Origin: Lachnospiraceae bacterium
GTDB lineage: Bacteria; Bacillota; Clostridia; Lachnospirales; Lachnospiraceae
Assembly (NCBI GenBank): GCA_024687125.1
Contig: JAILFA010000012.1
Span: forward strand, 1-64,000
Direction of reading: 5' to 3'
DNA: 64,000 nucleotides
The notes beneath the pieces are model-generated. The model did no database searches. It was not told the DNA's origin and saw only the letters and a program-made list of their open reading frames with translations. The position numbers and the translations under genes were made by a program. Positions 6,537 to 64,000 of the stretch are shown here, in pieces (the first letter of the stretch is position 1; every line of letters starts with the position of its first letter).

Positions 6537-7319
6537 TCACACCGTCACAAACGGTTCCCGCTCGACTGCGCAGGTGACCTCGAGAGACGGCATCTGACGG
6601 CGGAAGACTTCCTTCATATAAGGAATAAAGATCTTCTCAAGGCCGTAATGGCCGGCATCGATGATGGAAAGGCCGCAGGCCACGGCGTCGATCCCGGTAT
6701 GGTGATCGATGTCACCGGTGATCAGGACATCGGCGCCGGCCGCGATCGCCGTGTCCACGACACTCTTCCCGGAGCCGGGGCAAACAGCGGCCATACGGAC
6801 CCTGCGGCTCTGCTCCCCGAAGAGTCGGACAGCATCGATATGAAAGACTCCCTTGACGAGTTCCGCGCACTCAAGCAGTGTCATCTCCCTCGACAGACGT
6901 CCGACGCGGCCGATCCCTTCCTTGGCGAGATCATCCTCCCAGGTGACATCCAGTACCTCGCGGTCACCCAGTCCCAGCTCGTCGGCAGCCGCGTCCGCCA
7001 TGCCCATGACATCGAAATTCGTATGCATGGCGATCAGACTGATCCGGTTCTCGATCAGTTTGAGGACGCGGCGTCCCGTAAAATCCTCGTCCGTCACGCG
7101 CTTGAGGCCGTGAAAGATCAGCGGATGATGTGTCAGCAGCAGGTCTGCCTCCGCGCGGATCGCGTCGTCCACGACGTCATCGGTCGCGTCCACCGCAATG
7201 AATACCCGATTCACCTCACGGTCGCTCCTGCCTGCGAGCAGGCCCACATTGTCAAAGGAGAGCGCGAACCGTTCGGGTGACAGTTCCTCCAGCTGCGATC
7301 TGATCTCAGAAAGCTTCAT
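6537..7319 (-). CDS. Nif3-like dinuclear metal-centre protein
   Basis: The 260-residue protein belongs to the Nif3/YqfO family (often annotated GTP cyclohydrolase 1 type 2-like). Metal ligands are visible in LLTHHPLIF (about residues 60-68), in GDIDHHTG and in the C-terminal DAGHYGLEK segment. This is the short form without the PII-like insert seen in B. subtilis YqfO. Its start codon overlaps the trmK stop (TGATG), indicating translational coupling, and the trmK-nif3 pairing is conserved in Firmicutes. The true biochemical role of the family is unsettled. Confidence 0.92.
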   Translation of the reverse strand: MKLSEIRSQLEELSPERFALSFDNVGLLAGRSDREVNRVFIAVDATDDVVDDAIRAEADLLLTHHPLIFHGLKRVTDEDFTGRRVLKLIENRISLIAMHTNFDVMGMADAAADELGLGDREVLDVTWEDDLAKEGIGRVGRLSREMTLLECAELVKGVFHIDAVRLFGEQSRRVRMAAVCPGSGKSVVDTAIAAGADVLITGDIDHHTGIDAVACGLSIIDAGHYGLEKIFIPYMKEVFRRQMPSLEVTCAVEREPFVTV

Positions 7320-8074: not shown

Positions 8075-10650
8075 CCCGCGATATCATACGTCGAGATCGC
8101 GCGCAGCTTGTTCTCCGGTCTGCACTCCAGACGGATCCGGCGCTCTCCCGCTTCCATGTCAAAGAAATTGTCCGAAAGGACCGCCGGCCTGTCCCCATCC
8201 ATAATGCAGACACCTTTGGCGAAGGCATCGGACCGGACGACCGCCTCTTCCCCCTCTATGCTGACGCTCAGATGCGGATCCCGGAACATATAGTATTTCG
8301 GTGCGCAGAAGAGTGTCGTTCCGCGTGAGACTTCCCTGCCGGCGATCTCCAGCACATACTCCAGATGCACCTCGTGCTGATCGATATCCATCGCATCCAG
8401 CGCCTCTCCGCCGTTGATCCATCTGCCGTCATAAGGAAGTACCTGCACCTCTTCGCTGCCGCTGCGTACCTCCGCGGACGCGGCGTCACGCAGAGACCAT
8501 CGGACCGAAGCGTTTACCGGATCCTGCGTCTCGTTGGCGACATGCAGCATAAATGTGCAGCGCACAAGTCTCGGCTGCATGTTCGGGAACGGCATCTGTG
8601 TGATCTCGCCCTCCTCCCTGCAGGAGATCATGATCGGCGCGAACATCCGTTTTTCCGCGTAATGCAGTGCCTTGCGGTTGCCAAGACTGTCAATACCGGA
8701 CCAGGAAGCCACCGGCGAGATATCGTTGAACTGCCACACCAGCGATCCCATGCAGATGCCGCGGTTGCGCCTGAGATGCTCGACTCCGTATCGGATCGCG
8801 TCCGCCTGCATGAGCTGCGTCGCATAGAGCACCATCTCAAAGTTTTTGGGATACAGATATGTCTCCGAAAGATACTGCATCAGCTTCCCGTTCGCCGCTG
8901 TATTGCGCTGGTGCATCTCCATCACACGGGAAAAGATATTGAGATCCCTGTCCTCCGCAAAGGTGCGGATCGTCGCCAGACACGGAAACGACTGGAATCC
9001 GAATTCCGACAGGAAGCGGAACGTATGCTTTCTGTACTCGGTAAACGGCTTTCCCGCGTGCCAGACCTCCCAGTAATGCACGTCACCGACGTTTTCCGCC
9101 TGCGGCGCATCGAAGTTGCCGCCGGAGGAAGGAGAACTCGGCCAATAGCAGGTATCGGGGTCCTCTCTGGAAAGAAGCCGCGGGATCCTGTACTCAAAGA
9201 TCTTGATATAGTCCGCCTTCTGTTTGAGGGTCGGTTTCCATGCTCCGTCGATGGTCTGCGATTCCACTTCATTGTTCCCGCACCAGAGTCCCAGGCAGGC
9301 ATGGTGCCGGATACGGCGCACATTATCCGTGATCTCCGCGAGCACGGTCTCCTCAAAGGCGTCCGTCAGTTCATAATTGGCGCAGGCAAACATGAAATCC
9401 TGCCAGACGATGAGTCCGAGCTCATCGCACAGATCGTAGAAATCATCATCCGGATAGTAGCCGCCGCCCCAGACGCGGATCAGGTTGTAATTTGCCCAGA
9501 CCGCCTCCCTGAGCAGTTTCTCCGTACGCTGCCTCGTCACACGGGGAAGGATGTTATCCTGCGGGACATAGTTGGCACCCATTGCAAAGATCGGTGCCCC
9601 GTTGATCTTGAACGCAAAGTTCTTTCCGCCGTCCGGCATTTCATCCTGATTGACGGTCAGGATCCGGAGGCCGATGCGTTTTTCTACAACATCGATCACG
9701 TCGCCCGTCGCCTGCTCCACAAGCTTGACACGAGCCGTATAGAGCGGCTGATCACCGCTGCCGTTGGGCCACCAGAGTCTGGGATCCGGGACACGGATCA
9801 TCTGCTGCACGCCGGTTCCTCCATCCTCATCGGTAATCCGGCCGCGCCTTTTGCCCTCCATATGATATACCGCGCCGTCCGGAGAGACGAGTTCCGCTTC
9901 GACGGCAAACCCCTTTCGCCTGAGATCCTCATGGCTCCCAAGCGTCACCGGTTCGCCTTCCTCATATACACTCACCTGTGTCGTCACATGCAGACGCACC
10001 TCAGGAATAATGTAGCCGTGTACGCCGCGTCCGGTCTTGATGTGCTCCTGATAAAAACTCACCTGGCTGATATCCGCGTTGTGATGTGCGATCACCTCGA
10101 CCTTGCGGAAGATTCCCGCGTCAGGAAGTCTCTGCCCCCAGTCCCACCCGAACATGCAGTGTGCCTTGCGCAGCTGGGGGAAGCCGTCCATCGCATCGGA
10201 TGTTCCGCCGACCGGATTCTGACGGTTTGCCGCCGCGATATAGGCGGTCGGGGAATGCAGATTCACGCGCAGTGTGTTCTCCCGGGAAGCCACGGCACTG
10301 ATATCAAAGCTCCAGGTGCGGTGCATGTTGTCCGTCTCACCCAGCGCGATCCCGTTCAGGAAGATCTCGCCCAGCGTATCGATCCCGTGAAAGACCAGCG
10401 TCAGGGCATCCGCCGAGAGCATCTCCTCTCCGAGCTCGAACGCTGTCTCAAAAATGAACTCGTTGTCCATCAGCGGCAGGACTCGCAGCTCATTGTCACC
10501 GACATACGGATCCGGCATCCTGCCTGCCTCGAGCAGCGTGCTGTAGACGGTTCCGGGAATATGTACCGGGAGTTTTTCCTCCGTTGATACGAATTCGTTG
10601 CCGCGCATCAGGCGGAGCGTCCAGTTGTCAGCGATTTCCTGTCTTTTCAT
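8071..10650 (-). CDS. Beta-mannosidase, glycoside hydrolase family 2
   Basis: The 859-residue protein has no signal peptide, so it should cleave beta-1,4-linked mannose from imported manno-oligosaccharides in the cytoplasm. The N-terminal sugar-binding sandwich domain ends near residue 200. The catalytic TIM barrel carries the acid/base Glu in WCGNNE (about residue 459) and the nucleophile Glu in FLSEFGFQSFP (about residue 550). The WDWGQRLP and RVWGGGYYPDDDFYDLCDE segments are typical of beta-mannosidases rather than beta-galactosidases. It sits between the pilus operon and trmK, with a 4-nt overlap into trmK, an odd functional pairing suggesting insertion into an older operon. Confidence 0.93.
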   Translation of the reverse strand: MKRQEIADNWTLRLMRGNEFVSTEEKLPVHIPGTVYSTLLEAGRMPDPYVGDNELRVLPLMDNEFIFETAFELGEEMLSADALTLVFHGIDTLGEIFLNGIALGETDNMHRTWSFDISAVASRENTLRVNLHSPTAYIAAANRQNPVGGTSDAMDGFPQLRKAHCMFGWDWGQRLPDAGIFRKVEVIAHHNADISQVSFYQEHIKTGRGVHGYIIPEVRLHVTTQVSVYEEGEPVTLGSHEDLRRKGFAVEAELVSPDGAVYHMEGKRRGRITDEDGGTGVQQMIRVPDPRLWWPNGSGDQPLYTARVKLVEQATGDVIDVVEKRIGLRILTVNQDEMPDGGKNFAFKINGAPIFAMGANYVPQDNILPRVTRQRTEKLLREAVWANYNLIRVWGGGYYPDDDFYDLCDELGLIVWQDFMFACANYELTDAFEETVLAEITDNVRRIRHHACLGLWCGNNEVESQTIDGAWKPTLKQKADYIKIFEYRIPRLLSREDPDTCYWPSSPSSGGNFDAPQAENVGDVHYWEVWHAGKPFTEYRKHTFRFLSEFGFQSFPCLATIRTFAEDRDLNIFSRVMEMHQRNTAANGKLMQYLSETYLYPKNFEMVLYATQLMQADAIRYGVEHLRRNRGICMGSLVWQFNDISPVASWSGIDSLGNRKALHYAEKRMFAPIMISCREEGEITQMPFPNMQPRLVRCTFMLHVANETQDPVNASVRWSLRDAASAEVRSGSEEVQVLPYDGRWINGGEALDAMDIDQHEVHLEYVLEIAGREVSRGTTLFCAPKYYMFRDPHLSVSIEGEEAVVRSDAFAKGVCIMDGDRPAVLSDNFFDMEAGERRIRLECRPENKLRAISTYDIAG

Positions 10651-11348: not shown

Positions 11349-11891
11349 TCATCGCACCCCGTAATCCGTATGCACTTCGCTCCTGCCCGTCGGTTCGTAT
11401 ACCGTCAGGGTAAAAGCCTTACCGGAGCCGCTGAACACGAGCGTCCCGGCACCCTCCGTGCAGGCACCGCTCGCGCGGTCAAAGCTCCACTGATAATAGG
11501 AACCGTCATACCCCTCCTTGAGGAGTGTTCCCTTTTCATCACTGATCCTGAGCGTATTGGAGCTGGCCAGTTCCCTGCGGTCATATTCGCTCCAGGCCGT
11601 GCCTGTCGTGATCTCCTGATCCATCGTGCGCTGGATGACAACCTCCCATACATGGGAATCCTGGCGCAGCTGTATGCGGAATGTCCCCGGCCGGGTCTGC
11701 TGAGCGCTCTGTGCCAGCAGCAGTTCGTCCGATACGGCGCGCACCTGCTGTTCTGTCATCTTGCCGCGGTAGGAGCCCATTCCCATTACCGTGATGCCGG
11801 TCATCGTCATGATGATCGTCAGCACCACCAGCAGCTCGATCAGGGAAAAGCCTTCCCGGCGCCGCTCAGCCGATTCGTTCCCAGTTTTCAA
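11349..11891 (-). CDS. Pseudopilin, GspH/FimT-like
   Basis: A 180-residue prepilin-like protein with leader, Gly, then FSLIELLVVLTII (Glu at +5) and a beta-rich C-terminal domain. The best start is a TTG with GAGG 8 nt upstream; it lies inside the 3' end of the PilX-like gene, giving a 26-nt overlap and likely translational coupling. Short pseudopilins of this kind (GspH/FimT, ComGD) form the tip or core of type II or type IV filaments; FimT-like members bind DNA in some transformable bacteria. Confidence 0.82.
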   Translation of the reverse strand: MKTGNESAERRREGFSLIELLVVLTIIMTMTGITVMGMGSYRGKMTEQQVRAVSDELLLAQSAQQTRPGTFRIQLRQDSHVWEVVIQRTMDQEITTGTAWSEYDRRELASSNTLRISDEKGTLLKEGYDGSYYQWSFDRASGACTEGAGTLVFSGSGKAFTLTVYEPTGRSEVHTDYGVR

Positions 11892-12747
11892 ACCGTACCA
11901 CCTCGTCGACCGTCGTGATCTCCGCCGGTGCGCGGATCACCATGTCGCAGGAGATCTCCGACCGGGCGTCGCGTTCATAGTTCGTCAGGATCAGATGAAC
12001 CCCCTGCAGGATGAGCGTACCGTCCGGATTGACCCTGATATCCTCCACTCGGACGGAAAGGATCTCTGTCTTCTCTGATGTGATCGATCTGGTGCCCTCC
12101 GCCGTCACAGACGAAGAAAGCCCCGACAGATACGTCTCCATCAGCCTGAGTCCCGCCTCTTTGCGGGTGTCCATCTGGATCTTGCTGCTCGTCTCATAGA
12201 TCGACGGATCAAAGATCCCGACCCGGTTCCGGAGAAACCATTCCGCGGGAGCCTGCGGCCCGGTTGTCGCAAGCAGATCCGGTCCGATCACTTCAGATGC
12301 ATCCTCGCCGTCCGCGGCCTCATCGTCAGCGAAATCCTCCTGCTCCCCGGTGCCCTCCGCGTCCTCTGTGTCCGCGGTATCCTCCGTCTCCTCCTGCTCC
12401 TCGGTATCCGCGGTATCCTCTGTGTCTTCCGGATTCTCCGCGTCCGCTGTCTCTTCCGTATCCTCCAGTTCCTCATCAGCCTGCTGCCAATTGTACATGC
12501 TGATGAAATAGAAGTCCGTCACATCTCTGGTAAGACCGGCTTTTACCTCCCCTTCGACCATCTCCAGCTTATAGAAATTCTTGTCGGAGATGCGCTTTGT
12601 GCCATAAAGGCGGATGCTCAGAAGTGCGCCGCTCATCGCCATGATGCCGAGGACCGTAGCAAGCGCCGTCACGGTCATGACGAGAATAAAGGTCTGTCCG
12701 CCGGTCTGCCGCAGTTTTCCGCGGGCACCTTTAAAGAGCCGCCTCAT
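11866..12747 (-). CDS. PilX/GspK-like minor pilin with acidic insert
   Basis: The N-terminus has a basic leader, GGQ and a hydrophobic helix (TFILVMTVTALATVLGIMAM) but lacks the +5 glutamate, as in GspK/PilX tip proteins. Between about residues 85 and 155 there is a very acidic low-complexity stretch built from Glu/Asp/Thr/Ala with near-repeats of the type EDTADTE. The remainder is beta-rich. The gene overlaps both neighbours (4 nt with the upstream pseudopilin, 26 nt with the FimT-like gene). Its role as tip initiator is inferred from position and missing Glu5. Confidence 0.75.
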   Translation of the reverse strand: MRRLFKGARGKLRQTGGQTFILVMTVTALATVLGIMAMSGALLSIRLYGTKRISDKNFYKLEMVEGEVKAGLTRDVTDFYFISMYNWQQADEELEDTEETADAENPEDTEDTADTEEQEETEDTADTEDAEGTGEQEDFADDEAADGEDASEVIGPDLLATTGPQAPAEWFLRNRVGIFDPSIYETSSKIQMDTRKEAGLRLMETYLSGLSSSVTAEGTRSITSEKTEILSVRVEDIRVNPDGTLILQGVHLILTNYERDARSEISCDMVIRAPAEITTVDEVVRFENWERIG

Positions 12748-63622: not shown

Positions 63623-63694
63623 TCCTGACAGATGGACTTGAACCATCAACCTCCCGCATATCAGGCGGGTACTCTGCCATTGCGCTATGTCAGG
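63623..63694 (-). tRNA. tRNA-Ile (GAT)
   Basis: The minus strand folds as a cloverleaf: acceptor CCTGACA/TGTCAGG, anticodon stem CCCGC/GCGGG with loop CTGATAT (anticodon GAT), variable loop AGGTT, T-arm GATGG TTCAAGT CCATC, discriminator A. The D-stem GCGC/GAGT has a mismatch and the acceptor stem is atypical for tRNA-Ile. CCA is not encoded. Only 1 nt separates it from the preceding tRNA. Confidence 0.85.
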
Positions 63695-63695
63695 T

Positions 63696-63768
63696 TATTG
63701 CTGCCCGGACTTGAACCGGGATCTGTGCTTTAGGAGAGCACTGTCCTGATCCATTAGACTACAGCAAT
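63696..63768 (-). tRNA. tRNA-Arg (CCT)
   Basis: Acceptor ATTGCTG/CAGCAAT, D-stem GTCT/GGAC, anticodon stem GTGCT/AGCAC with loop CTCCTAA (anticodon CCT, reading AGG), T-arm CCCGG TTCAAGT CCGGG, discriminator A. CCA is not encoded. Confidence 0.88.
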
Positions 63769-63771
63769 TTA

Positions 63772-63844
63772 TGTTCCGTACAGGATTCGAACCCGTATTA
63801 TGCGGGTAGAGGCCGCATGTCCTGATCCGTTAGACGAACGGAAC
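63772..63844 (-). tRNA. tRNA-Arg (TCT), unusual C33
   Basis: Acceptor GTTCCGT/ACGGAAC, D-stem GTCT/GGAC, anticodon stem TGCGG/CCGCA with loop CCTCTAC (anticodon TCT, reading AGA), T-arm ACGGG TTCGAAT CCTGT, discriminator A. Position 33, nearly always U, is C. The D-arm resembles tRNA-Glu, so identity should be treated with some caution. Confidence 0.75.
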
Positions 63845-63848
63845 AAAG

Positions 63849-63937
63849 CGACAGCACCCGGACTTGAACCGGGACACCGGCTTTTACACCGATGGACGGA
63901 TTAGCAATCCGCTGGCTTACCATTGGCCCATGCTGTC
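63849..63937 (-). tRNA. tRNA-Ser (GCT)
   Basis: Acceptor GACAGCA/TGCTGTC, anticodon stem GCGGA/TCCGT with loop TTGCTAA (anticodon GCT), a long variable arm of serine type, T-arm CCCGG TTCAAGT CCGGG and discriminator G. CCA is not encoded. Confidence 0.88.
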
Positions 63938-63969
63938 AAATTTCCATATTTCACGACAGGGGCGGGGCG

Positions 63970-63992
63970 CTGGACGTCCAGTGGACGTCCGT
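63970..63992. repeat. Duplicated GGACGTCC palindrome at the window edge
   Basis: The palindrome GGACGTCC occurs twice, 11 bp apart, the first copy inside the longer palindrome CTGGACGTCCAG; outer arms GGCGCT (63965-63970) and AGCGCC (63995-64000) are also complementary. It lies upstream of the tRNA array and could be a promoter-proximal site or an end of a mobile element; the edge prevents a decision. Confidence 0.5.
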
Positions 63993-64000
63993 TTAGCGCC

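Follow-up and report, generated by a model that had tools for sequence, protein, structure and literature searches.

A modular tRNA array in a Lachnospiraceae genome with predicted leader-peptide attenuators ahead of its tRNA units

The four closely packed tRNA genes at 63,623–63,937 of the window (the whole stretch analysed, made up of bases 1–64,000 of a draft-genome contig, C134, that is 73,363 bases long) form the 3′ terminus of an array of 3.4 kb that continues past the window edge and that is read here, with a probability of about 0.72, as a modular set of spare tRNAs under leader-peptide attenuation, in which a stalled ribosome would switch on the matching tRNAs when decoding fails. In each module, an arrangement that recurs in many related arrays, a leader ORF is followed by an intrinsic terminator and a set of tRNAs, mostly with a small HTH gene as well. 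Leader residues are enriched for the amino acids, and the codons, that are served by the tRNAs of their own module.

The Four tRNA Genes and the Array beyond the Window

The four genes lie where the first-pass annotation had placed them:

63623..63694, minus strand, tRNA-Ile(GAT), found by ARAGORN, Rfam 62.3 bits, last gene of array unit 3
63696..63768, minus strand, tRNA-Arg(CCT), found by ARAGORN, Rfam 65.1 bits
63771..63845, minus strand, tRNA-Arg(TCT), found by ARAGORN, Rfam 53.2 bits, C33 in place of U33, anticodon loop CCTCTAC
63848..63937, minus strand, tRNA-Ser(GCT), found by ARAGORN, Rfam 53.3 bits

By the Rfam boundaries, the gaps between them are 1, 3, and 4 nt, and scores of 53–65 bits, compared with a cut-off of 29 bits for Rfam tRNAs, do not mark them as pseudo-tRNAs. 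The C33 of Arg-TCT is seen in the sequence, as are the D-stem mismatch and the C1-G72 acceptor of the Ile tRNA. Two of the meanings attached to these genes did not survive comparison with the host. The four tRNAs do lack an encoded CCA, but so do all 37 host tRNAs examined, and its absence, taken as a foreign mark, therefore marks nothing foreign. Nor are AGG and AGA the rare codons they were thought to be: among 9,450 codons counted from the host genome, they occur at 10.1 and 7.7 per 1000 (16% and 12% of the Arg codons), which rules out the supply of rare Arg codons as the role of the array. Extended to the right, as had been proposed in case more tRNAs followed, the array reaches ~67,047 on the same contig, and the four genes are its end.

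Besides 14 intact tRNAs, the array contains two that are interrupted, as well as three small HTH genes of the XRE type and one gene of the PF04308 family, the product of which is YkuK-like and RNase H-like; the HTH and PF04308 genes sit among the tRNAs. With 16 tRNAs in 3.4 kb, it has the density of at least two per kb by which tRNA array units are defined, and it is smaller than the at least 20 tRNAs of that definition (PMC5966550), a size reached by its relatives G068 (32 tRNAs) and L101–L103 (28 each). Its three units, in contig coordinates that continue those of the window, are laid out as follows.

Unit 1:
67265-67293, minus strand, promoter-like site
67110-67229, minus strand, leader ORF
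67054-67085, minus strand, terminator
66964-67047, minus strand, Tyr-GTA
66696-66920, minus strand, HTH1

Unit 2:
66591-66619, minus strand, promoter-like site
66405-66536, minus strand, leader ORF
66340-66369, minus strand, terminator
~66341 down to 66090, minus strand, HTH2
65774-66083, minus strand, Lys-TTT, Trp-CCA, Lys-CTT, and Gln-CTG
65650-65780, minus strand, two orphan tRNA 3′ halves, T-arms intact, no recognisable 5′ half
65525-65649, minus strand, interrupted Pro-CGG (insert 65538-65589)
65206-65520, minus strand, Pro-AGG, Asn-GTT, Thr-CGT, and Met-CAT
64695-65189, minus strand, PF04308 gene

Unit 3, before the four genes above:
64648-64676, minus strand, promoter-like site
64515-64625, minus strand, leader ORF
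64512-64527, minus strand, candidate antiterminator segment
64448-64481, minus strand, terminator
64208-64426, minus strand, HTH3
64102-64193, minus strand, Ser-TGA
63954-64099 (63954..64000 inside the window), minus strand, interrupted Ser-GGA, missed by ARAGORN, with 7/7 acceptor and 5/5 T-stem pairs flanking the insert
63967-64020 (63967..64000 in the window), minus strand, structured dispersed element of ~54–55 nt in the Ser-GGA T-loop

Overall, promoter-like sites show no excess over shuffled sequence.

Interrupted tRNAs and the State of the Array

Ser-GGA and Pro-CGG each carry an insert that interrupts the T-loop, and the two inserts are related. The ~55-nt insert, with its seemingly covarying stems, was considered as a tRNA intron; this was rejected on the grounds that copies also lie outside tRNAs and are scattered through the genus. 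The 16-nt core of the element occurs 28 times without mismatch, in 13 of 79 congeners, with none of the reversed pattern, and the copies often adjoin T-arm-like sequences; a search of viral contigs for the element pattern gave no match. Judged from its sequence and distribution, the insert is likelier to be a dispersed element than an intron, though it might still be spliced.

Since 2 of the 16 tRNAs carry inserts, the copy of the array in the window may be decaying. It could even be the silent remnant of a formerly active array, as the two interruptions and the orphan 3′ halves near 65650–65780 would suggest. However, the Rfam scores of fourteen tRNAs exceed the cut-off, the HTH and PF04308 genes are open, the conserved PF04308 residues are intact, and three leaders and three terminators are all present, so that a silent remnant seems unlikely.

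Leader ORFs and Terminators ahead of the tRNA Units

The attenuation reading starts from the arrangement upstream of the tRNAs. Across about 20 array loci, 26 tRNA units are preceded by a leader–terminator pair, and in 25 of these pairs the leader stop codon lies 23–35 nt ahead of the terminator stem, the exception being on the phage contig L071. Most of the leader ORFs have a Shine-Dalgarno sequence (the site of leader 2 of the window’s array failed the automatic rule). No such leader–terminator was found in 18 host tRNA clusters. Two features of trp-type attenuators are thus recovered: an intrinsic terminator between the leader and the first gene and, as far as predicted ORFs can be trusted, a leader with matching codons. 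Terminators placed just before tRNA units make sense only if read-through is possible. A T-box control was also considered and rejected, since no non-tRNA Rfam family came above the cut-off in L002 and eight related arrays. PF04308 is not universally tied to the leaders, as phage arrays with PF04308 mostly have no leader–terminator.

Leader 1 of the window’s array has five Tyr codons ahead of tRNA-Tyr. Leader 2 has many K, Q, N, T, and M residues, and its unit consists of Lys, Trp, Lys, Gln, Pro, Pro, Asn, Thr, and Met tRNAs; it lacks any codon for its own Trp tRNA and any that its two Pro tRNAs would read. Leader 3 is MLYYMLNNRISHSTGRSSRRSIRRIICYGKSVVREE, and the tRNAs behind it are Ser, Ser, Ser, Arg, Arg, and Ile. 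In the congener G068, a leader beginning MNRNRFEQFQSEKQEKQFCKEQKC precedes Gln, Glu, Glu, Lys, Lys, Gln, Phe, and Cys; in Ruminococcus albus 7, a cultured strain, the pRUMAL01 leader MKNTVFAFSYSYSYSSVVQKNKARLAMREC, located at 102364-102512 of the plasmid record and with a SYSYSYSS stretch, is followed by Tyr, Ser, Ser, Ser, and Ser.

Statistics of the Leader–tRNA Match

The idea was formed on seven leaders and then tested on the whole set. For 17 non-redundant leaders, drawn from the first 26, which were partly picked by eye, the summed z was 31.4 (permutation mean 0.06, sd 5.3), a value reached in 0 of 200,000 permutations; non-redundancy was set by hand, and the arrays are mutually related. 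The ten leaders outside the idea-forming set gave p=4e-5. Leader codons covered 0.906 of the unit anticodons versus 0.741 after permutation (p=1e-5), and the +1 and +2 frames of the same 17 leaders showed no match (p=0.96 and 0.81). In a held-out test, for which an automatic rule was fixed first and then run on loci fetched later, six non-redundant units passed, from L200, L211, L219 (which is R. albus pRUMAL01), and L226; the true pairing was the best of all 720, with p=0.00014 against random sets. For all 23 non-redundant leaders, the trace was 41.3, and the maximum of 200,000 permutations was 25.1. Taken one at a time, units often fall short of significance, and three leaders fit poorly (z of 0.06 for L088, 0.22 for L104, and 0.60 for L107-2). 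In 9/9 loci, leaders fitted their own unit more closely than the adjacent one.

One simple explanation of the locus would be an ordinary mobile tRNA array, in which spare tRNAs supplement the codon use of the element and the ORFs and hairpins are spacers or the ends of upstream genes, with no switch. Such arrays are well known on phages, plasmids, and chromosomes (PMC5966550, PMC12803027), and the phage arrays with the same PF04308 gene mostly do without leaders. This explanation has to contend with a leader and terminator that recur at a fixed distance across arrays and in none of the 18 host clusters, with a residue match that is frame-specific and holds in the held-out test, and with the inclusion of tRNAs that read codons in ordinary use, AGG and AGA among them; we consider it improbable. 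Another possibility is an erm-like switch that senses translation stress in general, reacting to ribosomes that are slow at any codon; the residue match would then be incidental. The many different amino acids in the leaders would fit such a switch, as would the induction of the Anabaena tRNA operon by translation-targeting antibiotics (PMC10272220); the preference of leaders for their own unit over its neighbour in 9/9 loci and the lack of a match in shifted frames argue against it, and it appears very unlikely.

Alternative Pairing and a Possible Mechanism

For the 5′ arm of the terminator, an alternative partner located at the leader 3′ end or ahead of it gives better pairing than shuffled sequence would (mean z -1.57 over 26 units, with z below -1.5 in 14 of them). 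The best such pairing has 11 contiguous bp and -20.8 kcal/mol, versus -17.4 kcal/mol for the terminator. In the three units of the window’s array, the pairing exists and is no better than shuffled (z of -0.50, -0.48, and -0.68); in unit 3, the antiterminator partner overlaps the leader stop codon.

Under leader-peptide attenuation, an ample supply of charged tRNA would allow the ribosome to reach the leader stop codon and to cover the antiterminator segment, whereupon the terminator would form and the spare tRNAs would be off. If a tRNA of the group were lost or uncharged, the ribosome would stall upstream, the antiterminator would form, and the matching spare tRNAs would be transcribed.

What would pull this switch is less certain than the switch itself. 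The trigger might be the destruction of tRNA by nucleases, whether those of defence systems or toxins, because extra tRNA helps only where the tRNA itself is limiting; uncharged tRNA and general translation stress were considered as alternatives. Anticodon loops without U33 occur in 29 of 301 array tRNAs versus 0 of 37 host tRNAs, and, going by sequence, the C33 of Arg-TCT and Ser-TGA is suggestive of resistance to host tRNases. Together with RNA-repair neighbours (see below) and published anti-defence phage tRNAs, the loops without U33 favour cleavage as the trigger without proving it. A related proposal is that the leaders, like those of his and trp operons, detect starvation for amino acids, and that tRNAs are raised to aid the use of scarce amino acids. 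The logic of the leaders is indeed that of amino-acid operons; against this, extra tRNA cannot cure a shortage of amino acids, the leaders combine several amino acids, and the units tested showed no biosynthesis gene, all of which makes starvation sensing hard to credit.

Origin and Relatives of the Array

Horizontal acquisition of the array, and with it the mobile origin that the first-pass annotation had proposed, is supported. The array tRNAs have 54–73% identity to host tRNAs of the same anticodon and are mostly closer to tRNAs of other arrays (for the G068 array alone, closer in 7/7 comparable anticodons). The PF04308 marker is sporadic: it is present in only 2 of 79 congeneric genomes, namely, this one and G068, where a single array combines the 32 tRNAs with the same PF04308 protein and an HTH gene, and in a family sample of 397 genomes, this genome alone carries it. 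Relatives of the array lie near integrases (L079 and L101), on a mobilizable plasmid, and in phage contigs. The flanks of the copy in the window, however, are ordinary chromosomal genes (RF3, type IV pilus genes, and glycosidases), with no integrase or phage gene among the flanking genes tested. The locus is, in short, chromosomal but sporadic.

The related arrays come from Clostridia MAGs of the gut and rumen, from the R. albus 7 plasmid pRUMAL01, and from phages, where they mostly have no leaders. PF04308 homologues of other Clostridia MAGs are often inside arrays of up to 28 tRNAs, and the L101 array has tRNAs for all 20 amino acids. Neighbours of the related arrays include RtcB, an RNA ligase, a metallophosphatase, a DUF2828/DUF7788 protein, and integrases; PADLOC defence models gave no match. 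At viral PF04308 loci (L129–L208), at least three tRNAs are nearby in 73 of 80, even at 26–30% identity. PF04308 was rejected as proof of array descent: because its closest relatives (70–75% identity) are mostly in loci without tRNAs, the histories of the gene and of the array are partly separate. A search found no solved structure of PF04308 relatives, and among the HTH matches on Ligilactobacillus plasmids, the one region opened, in pMP118, is without a tRNA array.

Several unusual RNAs were seen in these loci. tRNA-like RNAs with a CCGGYGG acceptor, in which a long hairpin domain (resembling AATCCTG..CGGGATT) replaces the anticodon arm, occur at L211:6005-6118, L073:5662-5780, and L084:2141-2253, in loci with a PF04308 or HTH gene. 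At L100:5871-5990 and 7056-7178, there are tRNA-like genes of 120–123 nt, the additional hairpins of which seem to lie in the variable region. The array of L071, a 394-kb viral contig, includes a tRNA called with the anticodon TTA (stop) and a tmRNA (8411-8482 and 11696-12054). Several arrays (L112:11563-11636; L101–L103) encode Ile-TAT, which would read AUA, a codon normally read in bacteria by a lysidine-modified tRNA.

Known Systems and Significance

Among the closest known systems is the trn operon of Anabaena sp. PCC 7120, in which 26 tRNAs on a megaplasmid are controlled by the repressor TrcR, which also controls rtcB; like the arrays proposed here, it is redundant, normally silent, situated beside a housekeeping set, and induced by translation stress (PMC10272220). 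TrcR is a ribbon-helix-helix repressor, and the part of the text consulted mentions no leader-peptide attenuator, whereas the arrays here have XRE-type HTH and PF04308 proteins and a leader and terminator for each tRNA group. The tRNA array units of Mycobacterium are likewise dense, occur on chromosome, plasmid, and phage, and have been proposed to have an anti-defence role; about 87% of the arrays of group G2 have an XRE regulator and HNH genes, so that HNH endonucleases stand there where PF04308 stands here (PMC5966550, PMC12803027). Phage tRNAs, some with altered anticodon loops, counteract defences that cleave tRNA (PMC11555353; a role put forward in PMC10264068), and PF04308-bearing relatives of the present array are found in phage contigs; T5-type phages, however, have a strong promoter for tRNA-Tyr, while the arrays here appear to be switched by leaders. 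Attenuators of the trp/his type, including the histidine leaders of hisS and hisZ in Firmicutes, share a leader ORF with regulatory codons and an intrinsic terminator, and have a competing antiterminator of which the arrays here show a candidate (PMC2965389); they differ in that here the regulated genes are tRNA genes and each leader spans several amino acids as a group, not a single one. The text of that survey nowhere uses the phrases tRNA gene, operon, or cluster. A literature search, with subscription papers mostly outside it, found tRNA arrays, stress-induced tRNA operons, and amino-acid leader peptides and no attenuator of tRNA genes.

With slightly better than even confidence, we go further and propose that the leaders serve as codon test strips, each spelling out the codons that the tRNAs behind it read, in which the loss of a tRNA group would be sensed by stalling and answered by transcribing the replacements for that group alone, protecting mobile elements or their hosts against defences and toxins that destroy tRNA, and that this class of switch is absent from the literature searched.

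Why mobile elements have large sets of tRNAs is a long-standing question. If the proposal is true, a switch that reports the missing tRNA group would give a mechanism for these sets; the arrays would be predicted to be off until tRNAs are attacked, and the anti-defence idea would become testable for each tRNA group. PF04308 (YkuK) would be indicated, by its viral loci, as a partner of tRNA clusters, and leader-peptide attenuation would extend to tRNA genes and to the sensing of several amino acids at once.
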